Source: Akkermansia muciniphila (lineage in GTDB: Bacteria > Verrucomicrobiota > Verrucomicrobiia > Verrucomicrobiales > Akkermansiaceae). From it: 64,000 nucleotides of DNA. This document shows, piece by piece, positions 1 through 26,874 of this stretch. Both the position numbers and the translations under genes were made by a program. The stretch covers positions 1,798,001-1,862,000 of the forward strand of contig NZ_CP114598.1 in NCBI RefSeq assembly GCF_030848305.1, given 5' to 3'. Each line of letters starts with the position of its first letter. Within the stretch, counting starts at the first letter, position 1. The notes under the pieces are model-generated. The model made no database searches, was not told where the DNA came from, and saw only the letters and a program-made list of their open reading frames with translations.

Positions 1-1
1 C

Positions 2-1564
2 GTGCGCGGGGAGGTGGTGGAGGTGTTTCCCGCCTATTCGGAAGGTGAGGCAATCCGCGTGGAGTTTTTCGGCGACGAAGTGGAGCGGGTTTCTTTGATC
101 GACTCCGCCACCGGGCGCGTGAGGGAGCGGCTGGGGAGCTACACGTTTTTTCCGGCCAAACAGTATGTGGCCGCTCCGGAGAAGCGGGCGGCGGCGTTGA
201 AGGCTATCCGGGAGGAGCTGGAGGACCGCATAGGCTGGTTTGAGAAGCATGGGCGCCTTCTGGAAGCGCAGCGGCTGAAATTGCGCACGGATTATGATTT
301 GGAGCTGATAGAAGAGCTGGGTTTCTGCAAGGGGATTGAGAATTATTCCCGCCATTTGTCCGGCCGCCTGCCCGGAAGCGCGCCGTCCACCCTGCTGGAT
401 TTCTTTCCCAAGGATTCATTGACCCTGATTGATGAAAGTCATGTGGCGGTGCCGCAGCTGGGCGGCATGTACGAGGGGGACCGGAGCCGAAAAAATATTC
501 TGGTGGAGCATGGTTTCCGTCTGCCCAGCGCCCTGGATAACAGGCCCTTGAAATTCCATGAGTTTATGGAAAGGCAGAACCAGATAGTGTATGCTTCCGC
601 TACTCCGGGGCCGTTTGAACTGGTGAATTGCCGTGCGGATAATAAGACGTATATTCCCGTGCGCCGTGCCGCCAGATCCGGAGAGAAGGCTCCGGAAGGG
701 TTCAAAGGAATCCTGTTTACCTCCCCCAAAGACATTCGCGTCACTCCCAGCCCATCCACGGAACCGGTGGAAAAATTTGACCCTACCAGGCGTTCCACTC
801 CTCTGATTGTAGAGCAGATTATCCGGCCTACCGGGCTGCTGGAGCCGAAGATTACCATCCGCCCGTTGAAAGGGCAGATTGACGAGACGATTGCCATGTG
901 CAATGAACGCGTCGCCAAAAATGAACGCGTGCTGGTTACGACGCTGACCAAGAAGACGGCGGAAGATTTGACGGAGTACCTGAGAGGGGTAGGGTTGAAG
1001 GTGTCCTATATTCACGCGGATGTGGATGCGATTGAGCGCGTGGAAATTTTGCGTGCTTTGAGAGCCAGGAAGATAGATGTTCTGGTAGGTATTAACCTGC
1101 TCAGGGAAGGGCTGGATTTGCCGGAAGTTTCCCTGGTGTGCATTCTGGATGCGGACAAGGAGGGGTTTTTGCGCAATGAGACGTCCCTGGTGCAGACGGC
1201 GGGCCGCGCCGCGCGGCATTTGAATGGAGAGTGCGTCCTGTTTGCGGATGTGATGACGGATTCCATCAAACGGCTGGTTGAGCTGACGGATTACCGCCGG
1301 GGCATTCAGGAGAGATACAACCGGGAACACGGCATTGTTCCCCAGACGGTGAGCCGTTCCGAACAGGGGCAGTTGAAGTTGTATGCCGAGGATGATGATG
1401 AGTCCTTCCGCGTAGCGGAGGATGAAGCCGGGTATGGGCTGGAAGAACGCATCGCCAGGCTGGAGGCGGAAATGAAGGAGGCTGCTTCCCATTTGGAATT
1501 TGAACGCGCCGCCTTGATTCGGGATGAAATCAGAAGAATGCGCGGAGACGGCAAAAAAGCATGA
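2..1564 (+). CDS. uvrB: Excinuclease ABC subunit B, 5' truncated by window edge
   Basis: UvrB is the damage-verifying helicase-like subunit of nucleotide excision repair; it is loaded by UvrA and recruits UvrC. The visible 520 residues are the C-terminal three quarters of a protein that is usually about 660-680 residues. The Walker A region therefore lies upstream of the window, and the GTG at position 2 is an internal valine, not a start. Visible landmarks are the YASATPG helicase motif (residues 197-203), the QTAGRAAR motif VI (398-405) and a C-terminal UVR domain (about 480-515) that contacts UvrC. The gene ends before a 350-bp non-coding stretch. Assignment is secure. Confidence 0.97.
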   Translation: MRGEVVEVFPAYSEGEAIRVEFFGDEVERVSLIDSATGRVRERLGSYTFFPAKQYVAAPEKRAAALKAIREELEDRIGWFEKHGRLLEAQRLKLRTDYDLELIEELGFCKGIENYSRHLSGRLPGSAPSTLLDFFPKDSLTLIDESHVAVPQLGGMYEGDRSRKNILVEHGFRLPSALDNRPLKFHEFMERQNQIVYASATPGPFELVNCRADNKTYIPVRRAARSGEKAPEGFKGILFTSPKDIRVTPSPSTEPVEKFDPTRRSTPLIVEQIIRPTGLLEPKITIRPLKGQIDETIAMCNERVAKNERVLVTTLTKKTAEDLTEYLRGVGLKVSYIHADVDAIERVEILRALRARKIDVLVGINLLREGLDLPEVSLVCILDADKEGFLRNETSLVQTAGRAARHLNGECVLFADVMTDSIKRLVELTDYRRGIQERYNREHGIVPQTVSRSEQGQLKLYAEDDDESFRVAEDEAGYGLEERIARLEAEMKEAASHLEFERAALIRDEIRRMRGDGKKA

Positions 1565-1705
1565 AGGAGGAGTGTTTGTCTGAATTCAATTTCCGGCAAT
1601 ACGACTGTTCCATGCTTCTTTCCTGCTCTTCGCATCCCTGTTTTTTGGGGACGATGTGATGTTCGAGTGATCGCTTAATTGCTGAAAGAGATGTGAGGGT
1701 GTGAC

Positions 1706-1730
1706 GCTAACGCAGATTAGAAATCCGTTG
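1706..1730 (+). repeat. Left inverted-repeat arm of element 1
   Basis: This is the reverse complement of 1864-1886 except for a CA insertion at 1713-1714. The inner 16 bases, GATTAGAAATCCGTTG, match perfectly. Confidence 0.75.
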
Positions 1731-1863
1731 TTATCCGCAACGCCTGTTCATATGCTAAAATCGTTTATAATGAGAAAAATACCTCTGATCCAGGAATAAG
1801 CAGCAACATTTTCATGCACGCTTGAATATGCGTAAATGGCCCTTTTAGAACATTTTACCTTGA

Positions 1864-1886
1864 CAACGGATTTCTAATCCGTTAGC
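1864..1886 (-). repeat. Right inverted-repeat arm of element 1
   Basis: It contains the 19-bp palindrome at 1865-1883 with arms AACGGATT and AATCCGTT around TCT. It serves as the spacer between the putative -35 and -10 boxes. Confidence 0.75.
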
Positions 1887-1919
1887 AAATAGACGGCAGT
1901 TTTGCCCCCCCTGTTTGCC

Positions 1920-3485
1920 ATGTTCTCTGTTTCGTTTGCCCTGATCATCATCTGCTCTCTGTTTGTTTTATGGAAAATGCCCGTAAAAGAACACGCCGTC
2001 CCTTGGCGATGGATTGTTCTTTTTGCCGCTCCTGGCGCCCTGGTTCTTTTCCCTTTATCTTATGTGTTCAGCGTGGAAGGATTCTGCTTTAACGACGCGA
2101 GGGCAATTTTAAGGAATGCGGGTGTATTCTGTCTTATGTTTGCGGCGCTGTGTCTGTCTCTTCAAGCTTTGAACAGCATTTTGTGGTATGGCGCAGAGCA
2201 TCAGTCAAACTGGAATCAACGACAGAAGTGGGGCGTTGCGGGGCTGATTGCGCTCGCACTGGCGCTCGTCTGGATACGCACAGGGACAGCAACTTGCTGG
2301 GACTTTGAACATTGTCAATATCCGCAGATCCTCAGCGGACATTATGGCGTCACCCACACGTTGACCCACACATTGTTTTGCGAGGGAATTTTAGGAATCT
2401 GGCATCATATTCATGCAATCGTTCTAGTCCAGTTATTGCTCTTTCTGTTTGTTCTGTTGATGATGCTTTCCTGGGGGATCCGTGAAAAAATTCCCGCATG
2501 CATTGTGCTTGCGGCGATTCTGTTCAGCATTTACCAATTCAATCTGGTGACGACCGTCATTAAGGATACGCCCTATGCCATTTCCGTGATGACTTTGACT
2601 CTTGGCCTTTGCATGGAGATGCTGGAGACGGGAAAATCGTCCCTGTGGATGATTGCTCTGGGTCTGGCGGGAATGGGGTGTTTTCGCTACGACGGAAGCG
2701 TTCCGTTTTTCCTTACCATTGCTGTGCTTGCGTGCTGCATGCTGCGTCAGAAAGAGGTGCGTTGTCGCCTGTGGATTCCTTTATCGGCTGCTCTGGCATG
2801 CTGGCTGTTCGCCTCTGCCGTACTTCCTGAAGCGTTGCATGCGGATCAGCAGAGAACAGGCACGAGGTATGCCAAAATGGCGCATGTCATTTGCGATGTC
2901 GTTGCGGAAGGGGGGCATGTGAGCGAGCAGGATATGGAACTTATTGAACGGGAAATCATGCCCAGGGAAATGATTCTGGAACGTTATCATCATTTTCATG
3001 ATTCCTTGCACCCTGTTGTGTCGACTGCGCGCGGCGAGAAATATCTTTGGAGCGGTCTGTTCCCTTCCTTGGAAATTGGGGCCAGATATTCGTTCAATAC
3101 AACCCTGACGGATAAAGGGGAAATGATCACCCGCTTGTTTTTCTCCGTCGCTGTCGATAACCCTCTGAAAGCGGCAAAGATCCTCCTTTTGAACAGCCAG
3201 ATGGTATGGAACATGTCTCCCAATGCCTGCGTGAGACGGTCTCCCCAGCTGTGTCTGTATTATGGCTGTTTCATCACTTTGCTTCTTGTCTGCATGTTCC
3301 GGCGCTGGAAATATCTGATCCCTTTCGTCCCTTTTTATGGGACCGTTTTTGTGATTGGAGCGGTTGCCACTACTTACGAGATCCGCTACCTGTTGCCTGT
3401 CATCATGACGCTCCCCATTTTGTTTCTTTATGCAATCGCCTGCATCAGAAGGCGACGGACAATATGCGACGCAGATACCGTCTGA
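1920..3485 (+). CDS. Polytopic membrane protein, DUF6020/GT-C-like
   Basis: An integral membrane protein of 521 residues with roughly 12-13 hydrophobic helices spread along its length. One larger polar segment (about residues 300-425) lies before the last three helices. This layout resembles GT-C-type membrane glycosyltransferases and the uncharacterised DUF6020 family; the segments ILSGHYGVTHTLTHTLF and VIKDTPYAIS look like family motifs, but I assign no reaction. The ATG at 1920 is chosen over the in-frame TTG at 1902 because it is a standard start and leaves a longer leader after the putative promoter. The gene is likely under the invertible element just upstream. Codon use matches the host; the function is unknown. 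Confidence 0.7.
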   Translation: MFSVSFALIIICSLFVLWKMPVKEHAVPWRWIVLFAAPGALVLFPLSYVFSVEGFCFNDARAILRNAGVFCLMFAALCLSLQALNSILWYGAEHQSNWNQRQKWGVAGLIALALALVWIRTGTATCWDFEHCQYPQILSGHYGVTHTLTHTLFCEGILGIWHHIHAIVLVQLLLFLFVLLMMLSWGIREKIPACIVLAAILFSIYQFNLVTTVIKDTPYAISVMTLTLGLCMEMLETGKSSLWMIALGLAGMGCFRYDGSVPFFLTIAVLACCMLRQKEVRCRLWIPLSAALACWLFASAVLPEALHADQQRTGTRYAKMAHVICDVVAEGGHVSEQDMELIEREIMPREMILERYHHFHDSLHPVVSTARGEKYLWSGLFPSLEIGARYSFNTTLTDKGEMITRLFFSVAVDNPLKAAKILLLNSQMVWNMSPNACVRRSPQLCLYYGCFITLLLVCMFRRWKYLIPFVPFYGTVFVIGAVATTYEIRYLLPVIMTLPILFLYAIACIRRRRTICDADTV

Positions 3486-3516
3486 CGTAGTCTGACGGAA
3501 AAAATCATAAAAATAC

Positions 3517-3544
3517 TTGCGTATTTGGAAAAAGCCTGTAATCT
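3517..3544 (+). promoter_or_regulatory. Putative promoter of rpmI-rplT
   Basis: TTGCGT (3517-3522) and TAATCT (3539-3544) are separated by 16 bp. Transcription would begin only a few bases before the rpmI ATG at 3554, giving a very short leader. Assigned from sequence match alone. Confidence 0.4.
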
Positions 3545-3553
3545 CCTTCCACC

Positions 3554-3763
3554 ATGACCCGCAAAGGTGGTATCAATAAAACCCGCAAGGCAGTCGCCAA
3601 GCGTTTCAAGGTTACCGGCACGGGCAAGGTACTGCGCCGTAAACAAGGCAAGCGCCACATCCTCCAGAAGAAGTCCAGCAAGCGCAAGCGCCAGCTTGGC
3701 AAGGTGGCTCTGGTGGACGAGACGCAAGTCTGGGCAGTCAAGCAGAACCTGCCTTTCGCCTAA
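3554..3763 (+). CDS. rpmI: 50S ribosomal protein L35
   Basis: A structural protein of the large ribosomal subunit. It has 69 residues, is strongly basic, and opens with MTRKGGINKTRKAVAKRF followed by the conserved GTGKVLRRKQGKRH segment typical of L35. It is co-directional with rplT 149 bp downstream, the classic L35-L20 pairing. The usual upstream partner infC is absent here; a membrane protein precedes it instead. The short leader and weak ribosome-binding site fit this organism's general lack of strong Shine-Dalgarno sequences. Confidence 0.97.
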   Translation: MTRKGGINKTRKAVAKRFKVTGTGKVLRRKQGKRHILQKKSSKRKRQLGKVALVDETQVWAVKQNLPFA

Positions 3764-3795
3764 ACCGCGGAAACGCTCGACTAATGCCGAGCTTT

Positions 3796-3814
3796 CCCCC
3801 CGCTGAACGGGGGG
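3796..3814 (+). other. GC hairpin between rpmI and rplT
   Basis: CCCCCCG and CGGGGGG form a 7-bp stem around CTGAA. There is no T-run, so it is not a standard terminator. It could be a partial attenuator or an L20-binding leader structure; L20 autoregulates in several bacteria. Confidence 0.45.
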
Positions 3815-3912
3815 CCTTCATGCAGCCTTCTTCCGATGAGAAGATAAGAACAGGCGAGACTGCAGGGAGGTGAGGAAGAACAGTCTGTTCAAGATAGAAA
3901 TAGAAATAAGCT

Positions 3913-4296
3913 ATGCCACGTGCCACTAATGGACCGGCCTCTCGCAAGCGCCGTAAGCGCATTCTCTTGCGCGCCAAGGGTTTCCGCGGTTTTCGCAGCA
4001 AACTCTTCCGCTACGCCAAGGATGCTGTTTACAAGGCTTGGCAGTATGAATACCGTGACCGCAAGCGTCGGAAGGGACAATTCCGCCGTCTTTGGATTGC
4101 CCGTATTTCCGCTGCCGTCCGCGACCGCGGTCTGACCTATTCCCGCTTTATGGAAGGCCTGAAAGCCGCCAATATCGATTTGGACCGCAAGGTTCTGGCC
4201 GATTTGGCCGTCTCTGACGAAAAGGCTTTTGACGCCATCTTTGCTCAAGCGAAGAAAGCCATTGAAGCCAAGGATGGCGCCGCTCTCCGCGCCTGA
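3913..4296 (+). CDS. rplT: 50S ribosomal protein L20
   Basis: L20 binds 23S rRNA early in large-subunit assembly and in many bacteria also represses its own operon. The 127-residue protein shows the family pattern: a basic N-terminus MPRATNGPASRKRRKRIL, the central FRSKLFRYAKDAVYKAWQYEYRDRKRRK segment, and the conserved RISAAVRDRGLTYSRFMEGLK region. Its length is slightly above the usual 117-120 because of an acidic C-terminal tail. It is followed by a strong terminator at 4336-4371, closing the rpmI-rplT operon. Confidence 0.97.
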   Translation: MPRATNGPASRKRRKRILLRAKGFRGFRSKLFRYAKDAVYKAWQYEYRDRKRRKGQFRRLWIARISAAVRDRGLTYSRFMEGLKAANIDLDRKVLADLAVSDEKAFDAIFAQAKKAIEAKDGAALRA

Positions 4297-4335
4297 ATGT
4301 GCGGGAGCATCCATCTGTTCAGTAAACGTTAACCG

Positions 4336-4371
4336 ACAGCCTCCGGAAATAATTTTCCGGAGGCTGTTTTC
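4336..4371 (+). terminator. Intrinsic terminator after rplT
   Basis: A 14-bp perfect stem (4336-4349 with 4354-4367) encloses a TAAT loop and is followed by a short T-run. Confidence 0.85.
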
Positions 4372-4508
4372 ATGTCCGGACATAACGGTGCCGGTCGCCG
4401 GCATCTTTTGAAATCCGTTCGGAACATCAGCATTCACTTTGTCATTAGGACATCTTTGAAGCTTGTTCACAGGAGCGTTCTGTGGTAGCCTGAACAGCAA
4501 AAACTACC

Positions 4509-5954
4509 ATGGACAGCATTCTTTCCGTTCTTACCACCATCGCCATTATTTTCGGTGTGGTGATGTTGTTTAACTTCATGATTTTTATTCATGAGCTTGG
4601 TCATTTTTTCGCTGCCCGCTGGCGCGGTCTGTATGTGGACAGGTTTCAAATCTGGTTTGGCCGTCCCATCTGGAAAAAAACGGTGAACGGCGTACAGTGG
4701 GGGCTGGGCTGGATTCCGGCCGGCGGCTTTGTTTCCCTGCCACAGATGGCTCCTATGGAAGCCATTGAAGGGCATGCGGAGCTTCCCAGGGATTTGAAGC
4801 CGGTCACTCCCCTGGACAAGATTATCGTTGCCGCCGCCGGGCCTGCCGCTTCTTTTCTGCTGGCTGTGTTGTTTGCCGTGGCCGTCTGGATGGTGGGCAA
4901 GCCGGATGTGGAGATGGGCGTGACTACGGTCGGTTTCGTTGCGCCGGACAGTCCTGCGGCGCAGGCCGGCATTCTGCCCGGGGACAAGATTGTGAAGGTG
5001 GACGGCCATCCTGTGGACAAGTGGGCTGGCAATATGGAAGGCGTGCGGGAATTGATCATGCTGGGCGAGCATGACCGTGTGGTTTTTACGGTGCAGAGGC
5101 CCGGACATGAAGGAGAGATGGAAATTTCCTGCGGATTCCGGATTCCGGAAACGTCCTGGTGGCAGCGCTCCGGCATGCGCCAGGTGGGATTGATGCAGGC
5201 CATGCCCTGCGTGATTGGGGAAGTGCTTCCCAATTCTCCTGCCGCTCTGGCCGGATTGAACCCGGGCGATAAGATTACGGCCGCCAACGGAGAACGCCTC
5301 TGGAACCCTGCCGCGCTGGACGCTCTGCTGAAGAAGAATGAACCGCTCCTGCTGGATGTGACGGACAGGGATGGGGGGGCAAGGCAGGTGAATATCCAGG
5401 GGAAGCTACCTGAGAATTGGCACAATAGTGCGGACGGCTCCCTGCTCAGGGGAGCGCAGCCTATTCTGGGCGTGAGCTGGGACCTGAGCTCCGTGGGACG
5501 TGACGTCACCGTCCATCCTTCTCCGTGGGCGCAGATCAGGCAAAGTTTGAAATGGATGGGGGATACCCTGGCGAAGGTGGTGGCCCCCGGCAGCAGCGTG
5601 GGCGTGGAGCACCTTTCCGGGCCAGTGGGAATTGCCAATCAGTTTTACAAGATGTTCTCCCTGGATGAAGGGTGGAAGCTGGCCCTGTGGTTTTCCGTGG
5701 TGTTGAACGTGAACCTGGCGATTCTGAATATTCTGCCTCTTCCGGTGGTGGATGGCGGCCATGTGGTCATGAATGCCGTTGAATTGATTTTCCGGCGCCC
5801 CCTGAATGCAAAAGTCCTGGAATTCGTCCAGTTCGGCTTTGTGTTCCTGCTGATGGGGTTCTTCCTGTTCGTGACATTCAAAGACGTGGGAGATTTCTTT
5901 GGCAAGAAGCCGGACAAGCTGCCCACCCCGGTATTCAAGGCCGTTGCGGATTAG
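4509..5954 (+). CDS. rseP: RIP metalloprotease RseP (site-2 protease, M50)
   Basis: An inner-membrane zinc protease that cleaves transmembrane substrates such as anti-sigma factors and remnant signal peptides. The zinc motif HELGH is at residues 28-32 in the first membrane helix, and the third ligand motif NILPLPVVDGG is at 407-417. Two PDZ domains lie between them (about 135-215 and 230-310), matching the tandem-PDZ bacterial subfamily. Length 481 is typical. It follows the rplT terminator, so it has its own promoter in 4372-4508. The membrane protein at 5987 begins only 32 bp after its stop and may be co-transcribed. Confidence 0.93.
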   Translation: MDSILSVLTTIAIIFGVVMLFNFMIFIHELGHFFAARWRGLYVDRFQIWFGRPIWKKTVNGVQWGLGWIPAGGFVSLPQMAPMEAIEGHAELPRDLKPVTPLDKIIVAAAGPAASFLLAVLFAVAVWMVGKPDVEMGVTTVGFVAPDSPAAQAGILPGDKIVKVDGHPVDKWAGNMEGVRELIMLGEHDRVVFTVQRPGHEGEMEISCGFRIPETSWWQRSGMRQVGLMQAMPCVIGEVLPNSPAALAGLNPGDKITAANGERLWNPAALDALLKKNEPLLLDVTDRDGGARQVNIQGKLPENWHNSADGSLLRGAQPILGVSWDLSSVGRDVTVHPSPWAQIRQSLKWMGDTLAKVVAPGSSVGVEHLSGPVGIANQFYKMFSLDEGWKLALWFSVVLNVNLAILNILPLPVVDGGHVVMNAVELIFRRPLNAKVLEFVQFGFVFLLMGFFLFVTFKDVGDFFGKKPDKLPTPVFKAVAD

Positions 5955-5986
5955 TTGCGGACGGCGTTTTTATTCCGGCTTGTTCC

Positions 5987-7372
5987 ATGAAGCAGTCACT
6001 GGCGGCGCGTTTCCTGTTCCGGGTGGTGGTGCTGGCGTTTCTTGTGTATGCCATGCTGCTTACCTGGTGGACTCCTTTCACCGGGGACAGCTTGATGCAT
6101 TCCGTGTTCGGGGCGGACCACCGCCTTGCCTTTCAGCCCGTGCTGGAGCGGTGCTGGTGGTCATACATGCACTGGAATCCCCGGCTGGGGGAATTCCTCG
6201 CTATTTTTACGGCTACGGCGGGAAAATGGCTTTTTCTGGCCGTCAATCCCTTCGTGCTTTTTTCCCTGGCGTTGATGATGTTTTTCCTGGCGCAGGGAAG
6301 AAGGGTAAATTCCGGAAACTGGCGGGATGTGCTGCTGTTTGCCGCAGGGGCGCTTCTTTTGCTTACGTCTTCATCCAGGCCGGGCATCACGATGTTCTGG
6401 CTGTCCGGAGGGACCAATTACGCATGGTCGGCCGCCATCTGGCTGGGTTTCCTGTGCCTGTACCGCTCCTTATGGGCAGGAACTTCCCGGATTAGGGACA
6501 CTCCTTTTTCCTGGTTCTGGATAGGCGTCACGGCATTTGCCGCCGGCATGACGAATGAGAACCAGATTCCCGCTTCCCTGGGCATGCTGTTCGTGTACTG
6601 GTTTTATGCTCGCAGCCGGGGAATGATTCTTCCCCGCTGGTTCTTCATTGGCTGGGGATTCCATGCGTTGGGAGGGGCCTTTCTTCTGCTGGCCCCGGGC
6701 AATGCTGCCCGACTTCATTCGGAAACGGCGGGCGGCGCTGCCGTCCTTCATTCCTGGGGAGAGCGTTTCGGCGCTATTCCGGAACTGGTAAACGCCTTTT
6801 ATGAATTCATGCTGATTCCTAAAATGTTGCTGGCCGTTGCCGCCGCCGCTCTGATCCTGCTGACTGTGAAAGCGGGGATGAAAATCTGGCGGGGGGAGGC
6901 CGGGCGGCGCATGTGCGCCTCCCTGCTGTTTATTCTGGTGGCTCATGCCATGGCAATCAGCTTTTTTGTACGTGTGATTCCGGCATGGCACGCCATGTTT
7001 TCCGCTACGGTGTTGATGATGACGGGCATTCTGGGGTTGTACGGAGTATGGATGGAGGCTGTGCAAAGGCGCTGGATTCCATTCTGCGTACTGCTGGCGG
7101 CGGCTGGCGCGGCCCTGTGGATATGCTCCGGATATCTGGATGCTTTTCCCCGTATCCACCGCCAGTGCGAGGAACGGAACATGTTCATCCGCCGTGAATT
7201 GGAACAAGGCAAGAAAAACATTACGGTTCCTCCTTATGATTCCGTGCCGTTGGCTCCTTATGTTTCCGTGATGTGGCGCATGAGCAGCGGGGATCCGGAT
7301 GAATTTATCAATCGTTCCATGGCCCGGTATTTGGGGATTGAAAGCATCCGGGTGGCTGTTCCAGAACCTTGA
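5987..7372 (+). CDS. Polytopic membrane protein, DUF6056-like
   Basis: A 461-residue integral membrane protein with about ten to eleven hydrophobic helices. Features that recall the DUF6056 family are an early aspartate-containing loop (FTGDSLMHSV), FWLSGGTNYAWSAAIW, GMTNENQIP and LLLAPGNAARL. That family is uncharacterised and resembles membrane glycosyltransferases of the GT-C fold; a role in glycan or polysaccharide modification is inference only. The ATG at 5987 is the first in-frame start after the rseP stop. A weak hairpin with a T-run follows the stop codon. Codon use matches the neighbours. Confidence 0.7.
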   Translation: MKQSLAARFLFRVVVLAFLVYAMLLTWWTPFTGDSLMHSVFGADHRLAFQPVLERCWWSYMHWNPRLGEFLAIFTATAGKWLFLAVNPFVLFSLALMMFFLAQGRRVNSGNWRDVLLFAAGALLLLTSSSRPGITMFWLSGGTNYAWSAAIWLGFLCLYRSLWAGTSRIRDTPFSWFWIGVTAFAAGMTNENQIPASLGMLFVYWFYARSRGMILPRWFFIGWGFHALGGAFLLLAPGNAARLHSETAGGAAVLHSWGERFGAIPELVNAFYEFMLIPKMLLAVAAAALILLTVKAGMKIWRGEAGRRMCASLLFILVAHAMAISFFVRVIPAWHAMFSATVLMMTGILGLYGVWMEAVQRRWIPFCVLLAAAGAALWICSGYLDAFPRIHRQCEERNMFIRRELEQGKKNITVPPYDSVPLAPYVSVMWRMSSGDPDEFINRSMARYLGIESIRVAVPEP

Positions 7373-14900: not shown

Positions 14901-15485
14901 TTAATGCCAGAAAGCAGCGGATTTCCGTCTGGAAATCCCCTCCATATTGAGAGTTGAACATCTCAGAGCAGTAAATTTTGATTTATCGCTTTGATTTACC
15001 AGTTGCTCATACGCAGCTTGTTCTTCCAAAGGCGGTATCGGAATTTCATAAGCATGTACCACCTTATCTGTAACTGCAGGGTAGTTCGCACCACTGGCCT
15101 GATTTATCATAGACTCCGTAAATGGCACGCTATTAATGACACCCCACATATACCCTGTAGTAACACCAGTACACCTCAAAACACAGAAACCAGTTGAACC
15201 TACCACGTTATCATCAGAATATGGATTAACTGCAATATTCTGCAAGTTTGGTCTTACCGTAGAGTACATTATATCGCCTTGTTTCAGCACATACTGCGCT
15301 CTCGATGGAGCATCCTTAAGAACATAGGGTGTCAATCCTGTCACCATTTTGGAAGAATTATCAATCGATGATATATCTAAATACTGTATCTCATCTGATT
15401 TCTCAAAGATTTTCGCTACTCGATCAATCTTCTTTTCGATTACATCTCCAATCTTCTTTACTGGATATCCCTTACCGTAAAACAT
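14901..15485 (-). pseudogene. Silent hsdS fragment: second target-recognition domain
   Basis: An open frame of 194 codons whose first about 171 residues are identical to the second target-recognition domain of HsdS (16563-17678), beginning MFYGKGYPVKKIGDVIEKK. It lacks the first domain and its own start context. Its reading frame opens just inside the 13-bp junction sequence, 11 bp after the integrase stop. After the identity ends, the frame runs into about 23 unrelated residues. It is best read as a silent recognition-domain cassette or a leftover of a recombination event. Expression is unlikely, although it lies in the same direction as the operon. Confidence 0.8.
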
Positions 15486-15500
15486 CTCGACAAATTGAGA
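14973..15500 (-). repeat. Direct repeat copy A (TRD2 cassette)
   Basis: 528 bp that reads identical to 16632-17159, in the same orientation, offset 1659 bp. One border coincides with the 13-bp junction CGACAAATTGAGA (15488-15500). Confidence 0.9.
15488..15500 (-). repeat. Junction site S3 (CGACAAATTGAGA)
   Basis: 13-bp sequence shared with 17147-17159 and 17737-17749. It forms the edge of direct repeat A next to the integrase stop and is a candidate crossover site. Confidence 0.6.
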
Positions 15501-15511
15501 ATTGCAAACAG

Positions 15512-16489
15512 CTACCCGATGAACTTCCGGTGCGATTCCTTCACGTTGTTCTGGTTCACCATAGCGTATTGCAGGGTTGTATCAATGCTTTGGTGGCCGA
15601 GAAGTTGCTGCACCTGCTCAATTGGCATTCCTTTGTCAATGGCCATCGTCGCCAGCGTCCGTCGAAATTTATGCGGGTGTACCTTATGAAAGTTCAACTC
15701 CTTTCCGATTTTGCGAAGACGAATCTCTACGCCGCTAATCTGCAGCCGGTCATACGGCTTCAGAAGAGAAACGAACAGCGCGTCATTGTCGTCGGTACGT
15801 TCCGTGAGGTAACGCTGCAGGTGAATTTTCGTCCGTGCATCAAAATATACCTTGCGCTGCTTGTTTCCTTTGCCGAAGACGATGCATTCTCTGTTTTCAA
15901 AATCCACATCACCGCGATTGAGCTTGACGAGCTCACCGACACGGATGCCGGTAGAGGACAAGAGGTCAATCATGGCAAGATCACGTGTGTTATCGCAGTG
16001 GTCGCGCATGAGCTCCAGCGATTCATCGGAATAGGTCTCCTTGACCGTTTTGCCGGTCTTGACCTTATGAATCCTCCTCACAGGGCTCTTGACGATATAG
16101 TCCTCATCTTCCAACCAAGCGAAGAACGAGGAGAGGATGCGCCTCACATTGTCTAATGTGACCTTGCTGACGGTTCCTCGACGTTGATATGTATCGAGGT
16201 AACCTCGCAGATCTTCGGTAGTGATCTGGCATTCAGGCTTGTTGAGCGTCTTCAGCATATTACGAATCGTCGATTCATAATAGCGTAGAGACTTTTCGGA
16301 ACAGCCTTCTACACGCTTTGCGGCGATAAACAACGGAAGCATATTCGGCGTTGTGTTCTCTATCGCAGGGGTGTTTACAGACAGATTAGACAGATGCTTG
16401 TTGAGTGTCCGCGATAGTGCTTCCTTTTGATTTTCAGTCAGGATTTGTGATAAGTCCTGTTGTATGTTTGCGATTATTTGATTGATCAT
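15512..16489 (-). CDS. Tyrosine recombinase/site-specific integrase
   Basis: A 325-residue XerC/D-like DNA recombinase. An N-terminal SAM-like core-binding domain (about 45-140) precedes the catalytic domain. Catalytic residues are visible: R183 in TGIRVGEL, H273 and R276 in HPHKFRRT, H299 in LLGHQS, and the nucleophile Y308 in TLQYAM. GKGNKQRKV supplies the beta-hairpin lysine. The start is preceded by AAGGA. It sits between the full hsdS gene and a duplicated copy of the hsdS second domain, the usual position of recombinases that shuffle hsdS recognition domains in gut Firmicutes. Its likely targets are the 13-bp junction sites. A general Xer role is unlikely given the context. Confidence 0.9.
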   Translation of the reverse strand: MINQIIANIQQDLSQILTENQKEALSRTLNKHLSNLSVNTPAIENTTPNMLPLFIAAKRVEGCSEKSLRYYESTIRNMLKTLNKPECQITTEDLRGYLDTYQRRGTVSKVTLDNVRRILSSFFAWLEDEDYIVKSPVRRIHKVKTGKTVKETYSDESLELMRDHCDNTRDLAMIDLLSSTGIRVGELVKLNRGDVDFENRECIVFGKGNKQRKVYFDARTKIHLQRYLTERTDDNDALFVSLLKPYDRLQISGVEIRLRKIGKELNFHKVHPHKFRRTLATMAIDKGMPIEQVQQLLGHQSIDTTLQYAMVNQNNVKESHRKFIG

Positions 16490-16562
16490 GGTGTTTCCTT
16501 CTTTTTGTTTCCTCCGTTATCCGGAATTCCTCGGGGCAGAGGAAACACCATGAGCATAGCAA

Positions 16563-17678
16563 TTAGCCAAGATTCTCAGCAATGATGCGTTTATAGGTTG
16601 CGGTCAGCTCTGCAAGAGCCTGTTCGAGTTCAAATTTTGATTTATCGCTTTGATTTACCAGTTGCTCATACGCAGCTTGTTCTTCCAAAGGCGGTATCGG
16701 AATTTCATAAGCATGTACCACCTTATCTGTAACTGCAGGGTAGTTCGCACCACTGGCCTGATTTATCATAGACTCCGTAAATGGCACGCTATTAATGACA
16801 CCCCACATATACCCTGTAGTAACACCAGTACACCTCAAAACACAGAAACCAGTTGAACCTACCACGTTATCATCAGAATATGGATTAACTGCAATATTCT
16901 GCAAGTTTGGTCTTACCGTAGAGTACATTATATCGCCTTGTTTCAGCACATACTGCGCTCTCGATGGAGCATCCTTAAGAACATAGGGTGTCAATCCTGT
17001 CACCATTTTGGAAGAATTATCAATCGATGATATATCTAAATACTGTATCTCATCTGATTTCTCAAAGATTTTCGCTACTCGATCAATCTTCTTTTCGATT
17101 ACATCTCCAATCTTCTTTACTGGATATCCCTTACCGTAAAACATCTCGACAAATTGAGACTTAACGAGCTCATCCGTTGCAGAAATCAGCTTTTTATAGG
17201 ATTCCATCGTGTTATTGATGGACCATAATACTGCAGCCAGTTTGCGCTGTGTTTTCAGATCTGGCAGGTCAAATTCTAAAATTTTGAGGTCACGCCAGTT
17301 GATTGTCGGCGAAAGGGAACCTACGGAGATTTTGATGGCTGCGTCCAGAAAATAATCCGAGCTGATAAACAGCGGGAAGAAGTCCGGGTCAATGATTTCT
17401 ACATTAGGACGCAGTACCATGCCGTGCGCAGAGAAGATACCATCAAAAGGTGCGATGGCTACTTTCTTCTGATAGGCTCGGCGTTTGCCAAACAGGACAT
17501 CGCCTTTGCGCATCACGAGCTTTTCACCGACAGGAGCGACGTCGGAGCCGAAGCGAGTAACCTTCAAGTTAGCGGAATCGAGGTGTTCCAGTCCAATGTA
17601 TGTGAAGCGGTCTTTTTCGACCGGTTTTTTCTTTTCAGTGCTGTTGATTGCAATCTGTTCAAAACGATATTTTGCCAT
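16563..17678 (-). CDS. hsdS: Type I restriction-modification specificity subunit HsdS
   Basis: HsdS selects the bipartite DNA target of the type I complex. The protein has 371 residues in the two-domain layout: TRD1 (about 1-145), a central helical spacer ending KLISATDELVKSQFVE, TRD2 (about 160-335, starting MFYGKGYPVKK), and a distal helical region ending YKRIIAENLG. The start at 17678 is chosen because AAGGAGGTG lies just upstream and the ATG overlaps the half-hsdS stop (TAATG), implying coupling. The TRD1/TRD2 boundary coincides with the 13-bp junction site S2. TRD2 is duplicated exactly downstream of the integrase. Confidence 0.93.
   Translation of the reverse strand: MAKYRFEQIAINSTEKKKPVEKDRFTYIGLEHLDSANLKVTRFGSDVAPVGEKLVMRKGDVLFGKRRAYQKKVAIAPFDGIFSAHGMVLRPNVEIIDPDFFPLFISSDYFLDAAIKISVGSLSPTINWRDLKILEFDLPDLKTQRKLAAVLWSINNTMESYKKLISATDELVKSQFVEMFYGKGYPVKKIGDVIEKKIDRVAKIFEKSDEIQYLDISSIDNSSKMVTGLTPYVLKDAPSRAQYVLKQGDIMYSTVRPNLQNIAVNPYSDDNVVGSTGFCVLRCTGVTTGYMWGVINSVPFTESMINQASGANYPAVTDKVVHAYEIPIPPLEEQAAYEQLVNQSDKSKFELEQALAELTATYKRIIAENLG
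16632..17159 (-). repeat. Direct repeat copy B (TRD2 within hsdS)
   Basis: 528 bp that reads identical to 14973-15500. It covers HsdS residues about 174-349. Homologous or site-specific exchange with copy A would excise 1659 bp including the integrase. Confidence 0.9.
17147..17159 (-). repeat. Junction site S2 inside hsdS
   Basis: CGACAAATTGAGA at the end of the central spacer (coding KSQFV). The sequence on the TRD1 side differs from S3, while the TRD2 side is identical. Confidence 0.6.
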
Positions 17679-18262
17679 TATGCGCACCTCCTTAAACAAG
17701 TAACATGATCGAATAAATCATTGAGGGTTACGAACCCGACAAATTGAGATTTCACCAGTTCATCTGTAGCAGAAATTAGCTTTTGGTAGGATTTTTTAGT
17801 ATCATCCATAGACCAGAGCAGGGTAGCCAGTTCTCTTTGCTTATCCATATCCGGGAGATCAAATTCGTAATTTTTCAGGTGTTCCCACTTTACACGAGGA
17901 GAGAGGGAGCCAGCGGACTTGCCAATGGCAAAGTCGAACAGTGCATCGTTCTGAATGATGAACGGCAGTAGCTCAGGCAGGATGCGGTCAGGCTTTGCTT
18001 CAATAACGGTGATGTCACCGGAGCAGATGCCATCAAAAGGAGCAACAGCAGCCTTCTTCAGGTAGGCTCTGCGACGTCCAAACAACACATTGCCTTTGCG
18101 GAACATCTTCGTGAAGGTGTTTTCGCTGCCTTCGTTCCAAGTGGTCAATGTGATCTCTCCCGGTATCAGGTGCTCTAAGCCAATGATAGGATAGCCATCC
18201 TTGTCTCCTTTGCAGGTTTCCTTATGTTCTATAGCGACATCGCCAAGAAGAACTTTACTCAT
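17678..18262 (-). CDS. Half-length HsdS (single recognition domain)
   Basis: A 194-residue protein matching only the first half of an HsdS: one recognition domain (about 1-145, starting MSKVLLGDVAIEHKETCKG) and the central helical spacer ending LVKSQFV. Beyond the junction site S1 the frame continues for 19 unrelated residues, ending TAATG, which overlaps the next hsdS start. It differs in sequence from TRD1 of that gene, so it is not a simple duplicate. It may act as a half-S subunit that dimerises, or it may be a parked alternative first domain for recombination. GAAAGGAG precedes the start, and the gene overlaps the hsdM stop by 8 bp. Confidence 0.85.
   Translation of the reverse strand: MSKVLLGDVAIEHKETCKGDKDGYPIIGLEHLIPGEITLTTWNEGSENTFTKMFRKGNVLFGRRRAYLKKAAVAPFDGICSGDITVIEAKPDRILPELLPFIIQNDALFDFAIGKSAGSLSPRVKWEHLKNYEFDLPDMDKQRELATLLWSMDDTKKSYQKLISATDELVKSQFVGFVTLNDLFDHVTCLRRCA
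17737..17749 (-). repeat. Junction site S1 in half-hsdS
   Basis: CGACAAATTGAGA at the point where the half-length HsdS departs from HsdS similarity. It has the same orientation as S2 and S3. Confidence 0.6.
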
Positions 18263-19778
18263 CGATATCTGTCTCCTTTCCTAATAATGCGTTCAATTTT
18301 TCATAGCTCAGCTTCATCATTTCGGAAGCTGCGAGCCAACTATCATAATGTTCCTGAATAGTGCGGTCATCCACGTCTTTTTCATTGACCTCCGCTTTCA
18401 CATACAGAGGAATACTCAGTGAAAAGTTGTTGTCCGCAATGTCCTGAATGGTAGCCACCTTTGCAAAATTGCCATCGTCAGCATAGCTCTCATATGCGGC
18501 AGCGATGCGAGCGATGTGGCGTTCTTCCAGATAACTCTGTGCGTTTTTACGCTCGACCTCGTTAATGGCATTGATGAATAATACCTGCCCTCTGCGGTCG
18601 GGGCGCTTATTCATGCGGCAAATCATGATGCAGGCTTCCATCGGCGAATTGTAGAAGAGGTTTGGTCCGAGACCGATAATACATTCCACTTTATCGCTGC
18701 GAACCAGTTTTTCGCGCATAGCGCTTTCCTCATTACGGAAAAGGACTCCGTGCGGGAACAGGATAGCGCATCGACCGGTATCATATCGCTTTTTCTCATC
18801 CTCCTCATCCTTCAGGCTTGCTATGATGTGCTGCAGGAAGGCATAGTCAGCGCGGCCCTGCGGAGGCACACCTAAGAAGTTACGACCATACTTGTCGCTT
18901 TCAAAGGCTGCACGGTCCCATTGGCTAATCGAATAAGGCGGATTAGCGAGGATTAGGTCGAATTGCCGCAGTTTGCCATTTTCGACGAAGGCGGGCGCTT
19001 TCAGAGTATCGCCGTTTACGATGTTGAAGTCCTTAACGCCATGCAGGAAGAGATTCATTTTGCCGATAGCGGAGGTAAGAGCGTTGATTTCCTGACCGAA
19101 CACGGCAACATTACGCCATTCCTTATTTTTTTCTTTGAGATACGCAATCGACGAAATAAGCATACCAGCGCTGCCACACGTCGGATCATAGATGGATTCT
19201 CCGGATTCCGGCTTCAGCATCTCGGACATCAAATGCACAACGGTACGATTCGTGTAGAACTCCTGCGCGGTGTGACCGCTGTCATCAGCAAACTTTTTGA
19301 TGAGATACTCGTATCCTTGACCGAGCTCGTCTTCCGGGCAGTTGGTGATGGAAAGAGTCTTGGCGCTAAAGTGTTCCAAAAGGTCTTTTAACAGCCTGTC
19401 GGGGAGTCTGTTTTTATTTGTCCATGCACCATCGCCGAAAATGCCTTGCAGCTTACCGAAGTTGGCGTTTTCCACTTTGCGGAAGGCTTCAACGATAGCT
19501 TTCCCAACATTTTCGGATACGGTGCGAACATCATTCCAGTGATAACCTTTTGGAACCACAAAGGTATGGATTTCGTCGTCATCAAATTCTTCAGCATCGT
19601 CACCGTATTTTTTGATAGCGAGAGCAGTTTCCTCGTCGTATACATCACAAATGCGTTTGAAGAACAACAGCGGGAAAATATACTGCTTGTAGGCACCGGC
19701 ATCAATGTTAGTTCTCAAAAGAACAGCCGAGTTCCAAAGATAAGACTGCAGTTCCTCAATAGTTATTCTTTTACTCAT
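18255..19778 (-). CDS. hsdM: Type I restriction-modification methyltransferase HsdM
   Basis: An N6-adenine methyltransferase subunit of a type I system. It has 507 residues: an N-terminal helical domain (about 1-150), the SAM-binding motif I YDPTCGSAGM near 195-205, and the catalytic NPPY at 279-282. All key motifs are intact. AAAGGAGG precedes the start. The gene overlaps the upstream ADP-ribosylglycohydrolase-HsdM gene by 8 bp and the downstream half-hsdS by 8 bp, so translation is coupled. It is clearly diverged from the HsdM part of the upstream fusion, so the locus encodes two different, apparently active methylase subunits. Confidence 0.95.
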   Translation of the reverse strand: MSKRITIEELQSYLWNSAVLLRTNIDAGAYKQYIFPLLFFKRICDVYDEETALAIKKYGDDAEEFDDDEIHTFVVPKGYHWNDVRTVSENVGKAIVEAFRKVENANFGKLQGIFGDGAWTNKNRLPDRLLKDLLEHFSAKTLSITNCPEDELGQGYEYLIKKFADDSGHTAQEFYTNRTVVHLMSEMLKPESGESIYDPTCGSAGMLISSIAYLKEKNKEWRNVAVFGQEINALTSAIGKMNLFLHGVKDFNIVNGDTLKAPAFVENGKLRQFDLILANPPYSISQWDRAAFESDKYGRNFLGVPPQGRADYAFLQHIIASLKDEEDEKKRYDTGRCAILFPHGVLFRNEESAMREKLVRSDKVECIIGLGPNLFYNSPMEACIMICRMNKRPDRRGQVLFINAINEVERKNAQSYLEERHIARIAAAYESYADDGNFAKVATIQDIADNNFSLSIPLYVKAEVNEKDVDDRTIQEHYDSWLAASEMMKLSYEKLNALLGKETDIDE

Positions 19779-22188
19779 TGATGTAGCCTCCTTTCAGTAA
19801 GAGTTGGCGCATTTTTTCTTCGGCAGCGATCATTTCTTCGTAGGCTTCAAAATACTGTCTACGGATTTCTGCCGGAGGAACGGTTTCCTGCTCCTTCTTT
19901 TCGATATAGTTGTTAATTGCGAGAGAGAAGTCCTTCTCACGAATTTCCGGTATAGTAACGATTTTGACCTTTTCGATAACATCCTCGTATTCAGTGTAGT
20001 AGTTAAATACGGTCTGAATGTCATCTTCGGTCATGATGTTCTGCGCTCTCTGAGGGGTATAAATTCCGGAGCCATCAATCATACAAATGCGGCCACGGTG
20101 TTCAGGAACTTTGTTATTGTTCAGGAACAGAATACAAGCGGAAACACCGGTGGAGTAGAAGACGCCACTTGCCATAGTGATGATAGCTTCCAGCTTGTCG
20201 GATTCCACAAGCTGCTTACGAATTTCGCCTTCCTTGCCGCTTCTGAAGAGTACGCCCTGGGGCAGCACTACGGCACAACGACCTGTTTTCGAATTCATAG
20301 ACTTAACCATGTGTTGGAGCCATGCAAAGTCGCCGTTGGAATCGGTTGGGCTTCCCCAGATATTTCTGCCGTAAATGTCACTACTGAACTGATCAGAACC
20401 CCAGTTTTTGAGCGAGAACGGAGGATTTGCCACTACGCAATCAAAGGTCCGAAGGGAACCATGCGATAGATAGTTTGGAGAGCGCAGGGTATCTCCCTGA
20501 GTTACTTTAAAATCACGTGCGCCATGTAGGAACAGGTTCATTCGAGCGATAGCAGAGGTTGCGAGGTTCTTTTCTTGACCATAGATTTTTCCGTAGGTTA
20601 ATTTATCATCGTGCATGTATCGGATAGCCTCGATAAGCATGCCCCCCGTGCCACAGGCTGGATCGTAAACCGTTTCTCCGGCCTTAGGTGCCATCAGCAT
20701 AATGAGCAATTTGACGATAGAACGAGGCGTGTAGAACTCGCCCGCATTTTTTTTGGAGAGGTCAGCAAATTTCTTAATCAGGAATTCATAACTGTCGCCC
20801 ATTACGTCAGCGGAATAGTTGTTGTTGCCGACCTTGATTTTCGACATGTGTTCAATCAGGTCTTTCAGACGCTCGTCGGACAGCTTGGTCTTGTCAGTCC
20901 AGTTTGCATCGTCAAAGCTGCTGAACACACCGCTCAGGGTGTCAGGGTTAGTTCGTTCAATTCCGTTCATGGCTGTAACAATAGCCTTACCGACATTTTC
21001 GCTTGTCTCACGAACATTCTGCCAATGGCAGCCTTCTGGAATAACAAAGCGGTGATTTTCCGGGAAGTTGGCGTATTCTTCGTCGCCACCGGATTCTTCG
21101 AGTGCGGCCTGGGTTTCTTCATCATAAACGTCGGATAGACGCTTGAAGAAAAGGATAGGCGTTACATAGCTCTTGTACTCGTCTTGATTGATAGGGCCAC
21201 GCAGAATGTTGCAGGCTTCAAACAGATGGGAGAACAGCTTTTGACTGGTTGTTTCTTCCGGATGAGCGGTGCTGGCTTCCAGTTCCATATCGGCGAAATC
21301 CATAGCGGATTGTATCATTTCAGCACGACCTCCTGTCTTTACTTTTTTGCCGGTAGAAGGTTTTACACCAACGTTGCCCTTTCCCTGATTTTTTTCGAAC
21401 TTCGCAGGATACTTGTTTTCAAATTCCAGTAAGATTTTCAGAAGACGCTCGTCCAAAAATGTGAGAGCGTGTTTTCTGATACTAATGGGTACTCCGTAAT
21501 AGGCTTCAGCCACGGCGCCGGTGATGGCCGCCAATGTGTCGCTGTCGCCACCAATAGAGATGGCATTGCGAATGGCATCCTCGAAGCTAATGGACTCAAA
21601 GAATGCTTCGAGTGCCTGAGGGACTGTGCCTTGGCAGGATACATTGAATTGGTAGGTATCACGGATAGTATCCAACGTAAAGTTAATCGGATAATAGTGA
21701 TTTACAATGTAATCCTGAATTTCCATCAGACTGCTTCCGGTACGGGCTAGATACACTGCAACAGCTGTAGCTTCAGCGCCTTTGATACCTTCCGGGTGGT
21801 TGTGAGTAATTTCGGTAACAGCTCTTGAAAACGCTGCAGCTTCTGCGACGGAATTGGCTACATAAGCGCATCCACTGACACGCATTGCAGCCCCGTTTCC
21901 GTAGCTGTTATAGGGATGCGGATTGTCTGAGTACATCCAGCGATAGAAGGAACCGCCATAACCGCAATGCGGATAAGGGCGACCAATACGCTGCATGGAC
22001 TCGACCGCAACATTACTTAAATCGCTGTAGTCGGGTTTGCAATGCGATAAGGCATCGCATATGGCCAGAGACATGACGGAGTCGTCGGTGAAAAAACATT
22101 TATGAGTAAGGAAATCAAAATCTTTCGATCTGTGATTGTTCCACTCAAATCTGGAACCGACAATGTCGCCAACAATTGCTCCAATCAT
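19771..22188 (-). CDS. ADP-ribosylglycohydrolase-HsdM fusion
   Basis: An 805-residue two-domain protein. Residues about 1-265 form a DraG/ARH-type ADP-ribosylglycohydrolase with the magnesium ligands of TDDS (T34, D35, D36) and GGDSDT (213-218), plus the HNHPEGIKGA segment typical of the family; these enzymes remove ADP-ribose from proteins or nucleic acids. A basic linker (about 265-320) joins a full HsdM: an N-terminal helical region from about 325 (LFEACNILRGPIN), motif I YDPACGTGGM at 508-517 and NPPF at 588-591. The frame is continuous with no internal stop. Both halves keep their catalytic motifs. The ribosome-binding site is weak, 28 bp after hsdR. What the hydrolase domain does in a restriction system is unknown. 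Confidence 0.9.
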   Translation of the reverse strand: MIGAIVGDIVGSRFEWNNHRSKDFDFLTHKCFFTDDSVMSLAICDALSHCKPDYSDLSNVAVESMQRIGRPYPHCGYGGSFYRWMYSDNPHPYNSYGNGAAMRVSGCAYVANSVAEAAAFSRAVTEITHNHPEGIKGAEATAVAVYLARTGSSLMEIQDYIVNHYYPINFTLDTIRDTYQFNVSCQGTVPQALEAFFESISFEDAIRNAISIGGDSDTLAAITGAVAEAYYGVPISIRKHALTFLDERLLKILLEFENKYPAKFEKNQGKGNVGVKPSTGKKVKTGGRAEMIQSAMDFADMELEASTAHPEETTSQKLFSHLFEACNILRGPINQDEYKSYVTPILFFKRLSDVYDEETQAALEESGGDEEYANFPENHRFVIPEGCHWQNVRETSENVGKAIVTAMNGIERTNPDTLSGVFSSFDDANWTDKTKLSDERLKDLIEHMSKIKVGNNNYSADVMGDSYEFLIKKFADLSKKNAGEFYTPRSIVKLLIMLMAPKAGETVYDPACGTGGMLIEAIRYMHDDKLTYGKIYGQEKNLATSAIARMNLFLHGARDFKVTQGDTLRSPNYLSHGSLRTFDCVVANPPFSLKNWGSDQFSSDIYGRNIWGSPTDSNGDFAWLQHMVKSMNSKTGRCAVVLPQGVLFRSGKEGEIRKQLVESDKLEAIITMASGVFYSTGVSACILFLNNNKVPEHRGRICMIDGSGIYTPQRAQNIMTEDDIQTVFNYYTEYEDVIEKVKIVTIPEIREKDFSLAINNYIEKKEQETVPPAEIRRQYFEAYEEMIAAEEKMRQLLLKGGYINE

Positions 22189-22216
22189 TTAATTTTCTTG
22201 CTTTCTTTCGGTGATA

Positions 22217-25141: not shown

Positions 25142-25192
25142 ATATATTCCTCCATATCTATAGTATCAAAGCAACGGTCCTAAATATTGGAC

Positions 25193-26800
25193 TTAATAGA
25201 GTTTTGATTGGATTTCTGCTTGCACTCCACGCCAGCCTTCTTCGGCTGCGGCGATGGTTTCCTTATAAAGGTTCAGGCCGGTGTTATATTCCTGAACAAG
25301 TGCTTCCTGCACTTCGAGAGGAAGAACAGGGACTTCCAACTCGCTCATGTCCTTGAAATTGATATTCACGACACCGGTTCCACGCTGTAGACTTTTCAGC
25401 ATCTTCGTTCCTACGGGAGATTCAAGGAAAAGTTTTAAATAGGTGCCGTTCAGCACATCTTTCGGACGAATTACGTTGATGTTTGCAGATGGTATGCAGA
25501 TAGAAGACTGTTCTTCAAATACTGCGATTTTAACGGTAGTGCCTCTGGCTGTCACCAAAACATCTCCGGTCTGCAAAATATATCGGGAGACTTTTCGCTC
25601 TTCATCAACGATGTAGTCAAGGCCAGAATAGTCAATGCCTGTATCGTTAATGTTTGAAATGTTGATGACTCCGATATTTCCTCCTTCGGTCTTGGTATTC
25701 AAAGCTTTACCTCTGAAAACGGTGGCCACATCTTTAAGATGGAGCTTTTTCACAGGAGAAGCGGAAAAGGCTTTGATGGCATCCTCTTCCTCGAAAAACG
25801 CCATATCGATGTTCCAGCCACTGAGCTCAGCAAACTCATCACTAAAGAGAAGCTGTTCGTTTGCTACAACGAGTTTCTGACAGGAAGAAGTTCTCCTGAT
25901 AGGCTTGTCTGGCTCATATTGTTTCAAAACCACATCGTCAGTCGTGCCAGGTGAGAAAACGAAGAGGTACGTTCTTATTGCGGTATATGGTGTGAACAGT
26001 CCGGCAGGTAAGGAGCTGATTTCCTTGATTTTATAGTTGCTTTCGATATAACTTCTAAGTGATGCAGTGCTTCCACTACCAAAGGTGATCTTGGCCGGTA
26101 AGACGATTACAAGCTCGCCATCCATATTTATATGGTAGAGCAGGTTTTGAACCGCAATCAGGTCGGGTTCACGGCTGATGAAATCTTCATCGTTTACCAG
26201 CATGCGTCCACCGAAAACCGGAATAGCAACAATAAGGTCAAAACGTTCGGAAGTGAAACCGTAACTGTATATGTCAGCCATCTGAACCTTTACGTTGCTG
26301 AATACTGCGTAAACTGAAGATAGCAACTCGTATTTCAATTCCTGCTTGCAGGTCAAGGTGAACTTGATAGCCGGATGGCTCTCGATGATATCCAGAAGAC
26401 CGGGTCCGTACTTCTCACATTCAGGAATGAGAACGCTTTCAATCTTGTCTGTGATATATTCTGCAAATTTCTCCACCAGTACTTCCGGTGCTGCAAGCTC
26501 ACGACCTTCGCTGGATGCATTTAAATAGGAAAGAATAGCGTACCCATCAATGAAAGATAGAATGTTGTACAGTTTGTAAAACATGTCGGCGTCTCCGGGG
26601 AAACGAGGCATTGAAGAAGTTACTTCCTGCATTGTGCGATACACTGTGTCGGTATCTGTCTCAGAAATTGTCAGAACTTTCTTGGTTCTTGTAACTCTGC
26701 ACAGGGTATCGAGTAGGGCTTGTTGGCCGCTGAATCCGTAACTTCTTAAAATATCAATGGCGTTAAAAATGTCTTTATTATACGATATACGATTGCTCAT
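25193..26800 (-). CDS. Degenerate N6-methylase fused to HsdS-type recognition domain
   Basis: The first gene of the island operon, 535 residues from the ATG at 26800 (AAAGG upstream); an extension to 26857 would run into the upstream palindrome. Residues about 1-330 resemble an HsdM-type methylase core, but the NPPY/F site reads IPVFG (193-197) and no clear glycine-rich SAM motif is present, so methylation is probably lost. Residues about 350-520 look like a single HsdS recognition domain: KDVATVFRGKAL, GVINISNINDTGIDYSGLDY, LQTGDVLVTARGTT, and ELEVPVLPLEVQEALV. It may be a specificity or scaffold subunit partnered with the fusion HsdM. Function is inferred. Confidence 0.75.
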   Translation of the reverse strand: MSNRISYNKDIFNAIDILRSYGFSGQQALLDTLCRVTRTKKVLTISETDTDTVYRTMQEVTSSMPRFPGDADMFYKLYNILSFIDGYAILSYLNASSEGRELAAPEVLVEKFAEYITDKIESVLIPECEKYGPGLLDIIESHPAIKFTLTCKQELKYELLSSVYAVFSNVKVQMADIYSYGFTSERFDLIVAIPVFGGRMLVNDEDFISREPDLIAVQNLLYHINMDGELVIVLPAKITFGSGSTASLRSYIESNYKIKEISSLPAGLFTPYTAIRTYLFVFSPGTTDDVVLKQYEPDKPIRRTSSCQKLVVANEQLLFSDEFAELSGWNIDMAFFEEEDAIKAFSASPVKKLHLKDVATVFRGKALNTKTEGGNIGVINISNINDTGIDYSGLDYIVDEERKVSRYILQTGDVLVTARGTTVKIAVFEEQSSICIPSANINVIRPKDVLNGTYLKLFLESPVGTKMLKSLQRGTGVVNINFKDMSELEVPVLPLEVQEALVQEYNTGLNLYKETIAAAEEGWRGVQAEIQSKLY

Positions 26801-26834
26801 ACGGATACCTTTTTTAGGTCGTGGGAGTAAATTG

Positions 26835-26874
26835 CTACATATAATTTGGTATGTCAATACTAAATTATATGTAG
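26835..26874. promoter_or_regulatory. 40-bp near-perfect palindrome upstream of the RM operon
   Basis: Arms of 18 bp with one mismatched pair (CTACATATAATTT and its complement at the ends) surround GTCA. On the minus strand the centre contains TTGACA, so the palindrome may combine a -35 box with an operator. It lies 35 bp before the first RM gene. It could also act as a terminator or transcription insulator. Confidence 0.6.

Follow-up and report, generated by a model that had tools for sequence, protein, structure and literature searches.

A member of the Akkermansia CGGATT..AATCCG inverton family upstream of a membrane-protein gene occurs in both orientations in Akkermansia muciniphila

The motif CGGATT..AATCCG was described in Akkermansia by Jiang et al. 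2019 (as quoted in PMC13343947), and another study found it again as inverton group 138, for which it gave a promoter motif and, in mice, dynamic flipping (PMC11892184). In A. muciniphila MucT, the ON and OFF states of the cps1 inverton were followed by PCR-restriction and qPCR, and this inverton was linked to the capsule (Gracia et al. 2026, PMC13343947). The locus analyzed here shares with the described family its arm motif, its genus, a place upstream of surface or envelope genes, and, as predicted here, a segment-associated promoter. The motif is the same as that of the cps1 inverton; however, the cps1 inverton controls a capsule operon, ON/OFF control of the capsule having been shown, whereas the present locus precedes a single membrane-protein gene, which it is predicted to control. 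The main-text passages compared do not name this locus (uvrB, membrane protein, rpmI), which may already be listed in the supplements or in Jiang 2019. The locus is a further, well-supported member of an inverton family already described in this species. It is very likely an ON/OFF phase-variation switch (inverton) of the CGGATTnnnAATCCG family of Akkermansia that is flipped by a tyrosine recombinase acting in trans, both the enzyme and the effect on transcription being predicted.

The window, that is, the whole stretch of 64,000 nucleotides that was analyzed, corresponds to bases 1798001-1862000 of a 2.65-Mb single-contig genome (labelled G000, contig C1). The order of the locus is uvrB (2-1564), the inverted arms, the gene for a 521-aa membrane protein (ATG at 1920), rpmI, and rplT; uvrB, rpmI, and rplT are what we take the neighbor genes to be after reading their sequences. 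A repeat search gave two perfect arms of 17 nt each, 100% complementary, with 131 nt between them (Table 1). The preliminary description of this DNA had already placed inverted arms just upstream of the gene, which proved right, but with a spacing of 133 bp, which did not. This arm pair was the sole perfect 17-mer inverted repeat with a spacing of at most 500 bp in the 64-kb window. Outside the perfect arms, GCTAACG/CGTTAGC is common to both sides, and the outer limits at 1706 and 1886 given in that description are correct if this shared part is counted. Within it, the left arm carries a 2-nt insertion, and the outer half-site of the left arm is degenerate. Each arm is by itself nearly palindromic, with the form CGGATT-nnn-AATCCG of the inverton family (CGGATTnnnAATCCG), exact in the right arm and with one mismatch in the left. 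A search of window positions 1-6000 against Rfam gave no match.

Table 1. Coordinates of the features of the switch locus, numbered from the first base of the window
Feature	Position	Strand	Remarks
Left arm	1706..1731	+	Core recombination site 1713-1727, CAGATTAGAAATCCG, 1 mismatch to CGGATTnnnAATCCG; perfect arm 1715-1731
Variable center of left site, AGA	1719..1721	+	Centers reverse-complementary in 37/39 genomic pairs
Invertible segment, 131 nt between the perfect arms	1732..1862		Reverse-complemented in L089 (the Mouse_2_MG allele), ~97% identity, flanks unchanged
-35 element TTGACA, 6/6 consensus	1860..1865	+	Inside the segment, partly overlapping the inner edge of the right arm
Right arm	1863..1886	-	Core recombination site 1867-1881, CGGATTTCTAATCCG, exact motif; perfect arm 1863-1879
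Variable center of right site, TCT	1873..1875	+	Reverse complement of the left center AGA
Proposed -10 element TAGCAA, weak (3/6)	1883..1888	+	Outside the segment, 17 nt after the -35; TA position matches the family
Putatively controlled gene, 521-aa polytopic membrane protein, no family match	1920..3485	+	ORF, ortholog alignment, hydropathy

The 15-nt motif CGGATTnnnAATCCG occurred 95 times in the whole genome with at most one mismatch (37 exact), and a reversed control pattern occurred 0 times at the same tolerance. Therefore, the site pattern is far beyond chance. Most sites were paired, typically about 146-300 bp apart. When 39 pairs were set by motif quality alone, with the three central bases ignored, the centers proved reverse-complementary in 37 of them and direct copies in 0, about 0.6 being expected by chance (39/64). 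In a set of 40 pairs, to which three had been added with help from the center, the left and right arms agreed in 100% of the pairs at motif positions 4-11, in 75 to 97% at the other motif positions, and at the background level outside the motif. Site-specific recombination, here with an overlap of some 7-8 bp, is expected to leave just such a pattern, in which the flanks are conserved and the core varies but has to match in the two partners. Because the sites are inverted, they predict inversion, not deletion. In all, this genome has about 40 such switches, the window locus among them. One pair, at 211452/212680 (L043, G000:C1:211452-212694), has its sites 1228 bp apart within a long inverted duplication, whose flanks are about 99% identical over 1.9 kb or more; as part of this duplication, the pair does not count as independent evidence.

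Two readings without site-specific inversion were weighed against these results. Since the sites are palindromes in their own right (CGGATTnnnAATCCG) and stand between a -35 and a -10 element, the arms could be operators of a dimeric regulator that loops the DNA between two palindromic sites and represses the promoter with no recombination. Such operators do not predict that the centers, although they differ from one pair to the next, are reverse complements of each other in the same pair (37/39), and they are contradicted by an allele inverted exactly at the arms (see below). On these two grounds, the operator reading was rejected as very unlikely. The many dispersed copies, which are about 150-300 bp long and have similar ends, would be accounted for by a short transposable element bounded by terminal inverted repeats, MITE-like or otherwise. 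However, a 211-nt query from the window locus matched elsewhere in the genome over the arms only, and copies that share no interior sequence led us to reject this reading, which we regard as extremely improbable. Against it stand also the centers, which vary from pair to pair, the positions, which are kept upstream of orthologous genes across species, and the inversion of the segment in place.

The sites of the inverton family showed a fixed relation to promoter elements. A -35 element of at least 5/6 was found at offset -7 from the site in 33/80 arms, belonging to 31 pairs, and 0 were found at nine other offsets tested. A TA at +16/+17, which is 17 nt beyond the -35 and outside the segment, was found in 33 arms and in exactly one arm in 33/40 pairs. 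Thus, the spacer of the promoter is the recombination site; inversion moves the -35, which is inside the segment, and leaves the -10 outside in place. The preliminary description had put TTGACA inside the segment, where the right arm has its inner edge, and this held; the -10 lies outside, so that the promoter is split by the switch at the spacer. In the window, the -35 TTGACA of this locus faces the gene, which is the ON orientation, and is followed by the weak -10 TAGCAA; a strict consensus promoter scan called no promoter at this locus, the proposed -10 included. Among the 25 pairs having one -35 and one -10 in the G000 assembly, 18 were ON and 7 were OFF. A -35 of at least 5/6 was missing in 9/40 pairs, so some members may not be promoter switches.

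According to the mechanism that we propose, a tyrosine recombinase acting in trans would pair the two palindromic sites and exchange strands within their central 7-8 bases, which by necessity would be identical in both sites, and recombination would invert the 131-nt segment. The fixed -10 would lie just outside the right arm, beside the gene, and the movable -35 just inside it, with the recombination site serving as the 17-bp spacer. In the orientation of the window, the -35 would face the gene (ON). Inversion would leave the right arm without a -35 (OFF), and the -35 would be directed at the 3' end of uvrB. We infer from the arrangement of these elements that inversion would affect transcription of the gene at 1920-3485.

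A protein search of genome contigs gave a single close relative, NZ_FXYA01000214.1 from A. muciniphila Mouse_2_MG (locus L089). Its gene was 99% identical to that of the window, its left flank was identical, and its right flank was 98% identical. The interior matched the window only as the reverse complement, with a score of 252/272, versus 18/272 in the forward direction. The outer marker (CAG versus G) stayed with the flank and the inner marker was swapped, which puts the crossover within the arm. In this allele, the right arm reads GGATAACAACGG at its inner edge, with no -35; therefore, this allele is OFF. The window locus occurs in both orientations in A. muciniphila and is inverted exactly between the arms in Mouse_2_MG, the inverted allele coming from one draft assembly. 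Because both records are assemblies, the two orientations were seen between assemblies and not within one culture, and the comparison tells that both forms exist in the species but does not give a frequency of switching in cells. Reads of the inverted form across both arms had been named in the preliminary description as the evidence that would confirm switching, and the Mouse_2_MG allele supplies such sequence as an assembly, not as reads. When switch orientation was compared between G000 and this second assembly (G067), 17 scorable switches had the same orientation and 5 were flipped: the window locus and those at 1055358 and 1888475 were clean, one had a diverged interior, and one was weak.

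Orthologs of the 521-aa protein were found at 51 to 53% identity in four other Akkermansia species (G004, G017, G051, and G061). In 4/4, an arm pair lay upstream of the ortholog, with centers different from those of the window; the arm away from the gene carried the -35 (OFF), and a -10 of the TAG type lay on the gene side. Together with Mouse_2_MG, the five relatives were all OFF, and the window was ON. The switch has remained with the gene while its own sequence drifted. The preliminary description had held that loss of the arms in close relatives would speak against an invertible promoter; the four species keep them, and these arm pairs, together with the inverted allele, support its reading of the locus as an invertible promoter. 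Exact motif sites numbered 37 to 70 in G000, G004, G017, G051, and G061; 88 in G042, the most of any genome sampled; 22 in G013; 11 in G015; and 0 to 8 in each of the other Akkermansia genomes sampled.

The reading frame of the gene is open from 1902, and its orthologs align from the ATG at 1920. Hydropathy gave 11 hydrophobic segments in the 521-aa protein, in line with its earlier description as a polytopic membrane protein. Pfam and NCBIfam gave no match to it, and a search for solved structural relatives gave none that was convincing, its one match being apparently spurious. The AlphaFold model was poor (pLDDT of 61.5), and its best Foldseek matches included GT-C enzymes (ArnT, AftA, and oligosaccharyltransferases) at E values of 0.3 or worse, which on a poor model are a hint only. 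A role of this protein in envelope glycan assembly would be a guess.

In Bacteroides fragilis, the polysaccharide promoters are reportedly inverted globally by Mpi, which is a serine-type invertase. The Akkermansia family is like this system in its many dispersed invertible promoters with shared arms and, as proposed here, in an enzyme acting in trans, but it differs in phylum, arm sequence, and promoter type. The preliminary description had likened the locus to the invertible promoters of gut Bacteroidales. The layout agrees with that concept; the host is Akkermansia, which is not one of the Bacteroidales. A serine invertase was rejected because PF00239 had no match in G000, and it had none in four of the motif-rich relatives of G000. 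One enzyme may likewise serve all the switches of this genome, which has about 40 pairs, no enzyme next to the window switch, and one non-Xer tyrosine recombinase kept in all five motif-rich relatives. As the preliminary description had noted, no recombinase gene adjoins the switch, the nearest in the window being at 15512-16489 on the minus strand, as part of a type I restriction locus.

G000 carries nine PF00589 tyrosine recombinases, among which only XerC, XerD, and the protein at 1947942-1949039 had orthologs of at least 83% identity in all five motif-rich relatives. The last of these (G000:C1:1947942-1949039; 380-386 aa) lies about 148 kb from the window locus, a distance from which it would probably act in trans, and a speA-like gene adjoins it in G000 and four relatives. 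A tree of the recombinase family placed it in a tight clade of six A. muciniphila-group genomes and does not settle its relation to homologs in G013, G015, and G042. Most low-motif Akkermansia genomes carry several paralogs of this protein (4-22). Perfect inverted repeats of 13 nt or more, spaced 90-220 bp apart, were found at 14/25 paralog loci of other Akkermansia, versus 0/20 Xer loci and about 0.6% of shuffles, and for this reason the family looks like one of promoter invertases. At L136-L156, from other Akkermansia, the family copies have inverted arms next to them, for example TTCGGAATCCGTAA or CGTATTCATAAGCCGTAA, and several paralog loci also have TTGACT at the inner edge of one arm; L136-L156 are apparently local switch modules with diverged sites. 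On balance, we favor the view that the family consists of promoter invertases and that its member at 1947942-1949039 is the best candidate for the global invertase, an assignment reached by elimination. Against this candidate, G042 pairs its many sites with homologs that are only about 45% identical. No invertase assignment for the Akkermansia inverton family was found in the literature searched.

Another enzyme might instead flip the invertible promoter, namely XerC/XerD, the recombinase at 15512-16489, or that at G000:2362726-2363646, which lies beside a switch; we consider this less likely than not. All motif-rich genomes have XerC and XerD, but Xer enzymes normally act at dif, and they would leave the motif richness of only some Akkermansia unexplained. 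The gene at 2362726 lies directly downstream of a switch, and a related recombinase of G042 lies beside CGGATTCGAAATCCG arms; however, among the five motif-rich relatives, the 2362726 gene has an ortholog only in G004 (77%). The recombinase at 15512-16489 was rejected as the invertase, as it sits among hsdS pieces of the restriction locus and has no ortholog in the five motif-rich relatives.

Two of these recombinase loci have features of their own. At L126 (G000:C1:2362436-2363646), the candidate-family recombinase gene starts directly downstream of a family switch, so its own expression may be phase-variable; it is adjoined by ORFs that, from reading them, we presume to be Cas2-like and Cas1-like. 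The type I restriction locus (window 14901-26857, minus strand) contains the recombinase gene between HsdS pieces, two HsdM-type genes, and HsdR, and it looks like a phase-variable specificity locus. Its recombinase is 87% identical to one in G042, while XerC is only 55% identical, which suggests horizontal transfer. Another gene of this locus (window 19771-22188, minus strand) encodes an 805-aa protein in which an ADP-ribosylglycohydrolase domain (PF03747) is joined to an HsdM methylase, an unusual domain combination in a restriction locus.

Returning to the global invertase proposed above, we see about an even chance that one tyrosine recombinase (1947942-1949039) flips the roughly 40 switches in trans in the A. 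muciniphila group and that other Akkermansia use 4 to 22 paralogs, several of them beside their own switch, whose site has diverged but whose layout is similar, with the -35 where one arm has its inner edge. A shift between many local invertases and one global invertase would then have taken place in the genus, with the sites diverging along with the enzymes. With the locus described here, a conserved membrane-protein gene would join the phase-variable set of a major gut commensal, with a natural inversion at that gene. The anatomy of the switch, with a matched core of about 8 bp, the site as the promoter spacer, and the -10 outside, yields a simple ON/OFF rule for Akkermansia assemblies, and the recombinase at 1947942-1949039 offers a testable candidate enzyme for the flipping of the whole family.
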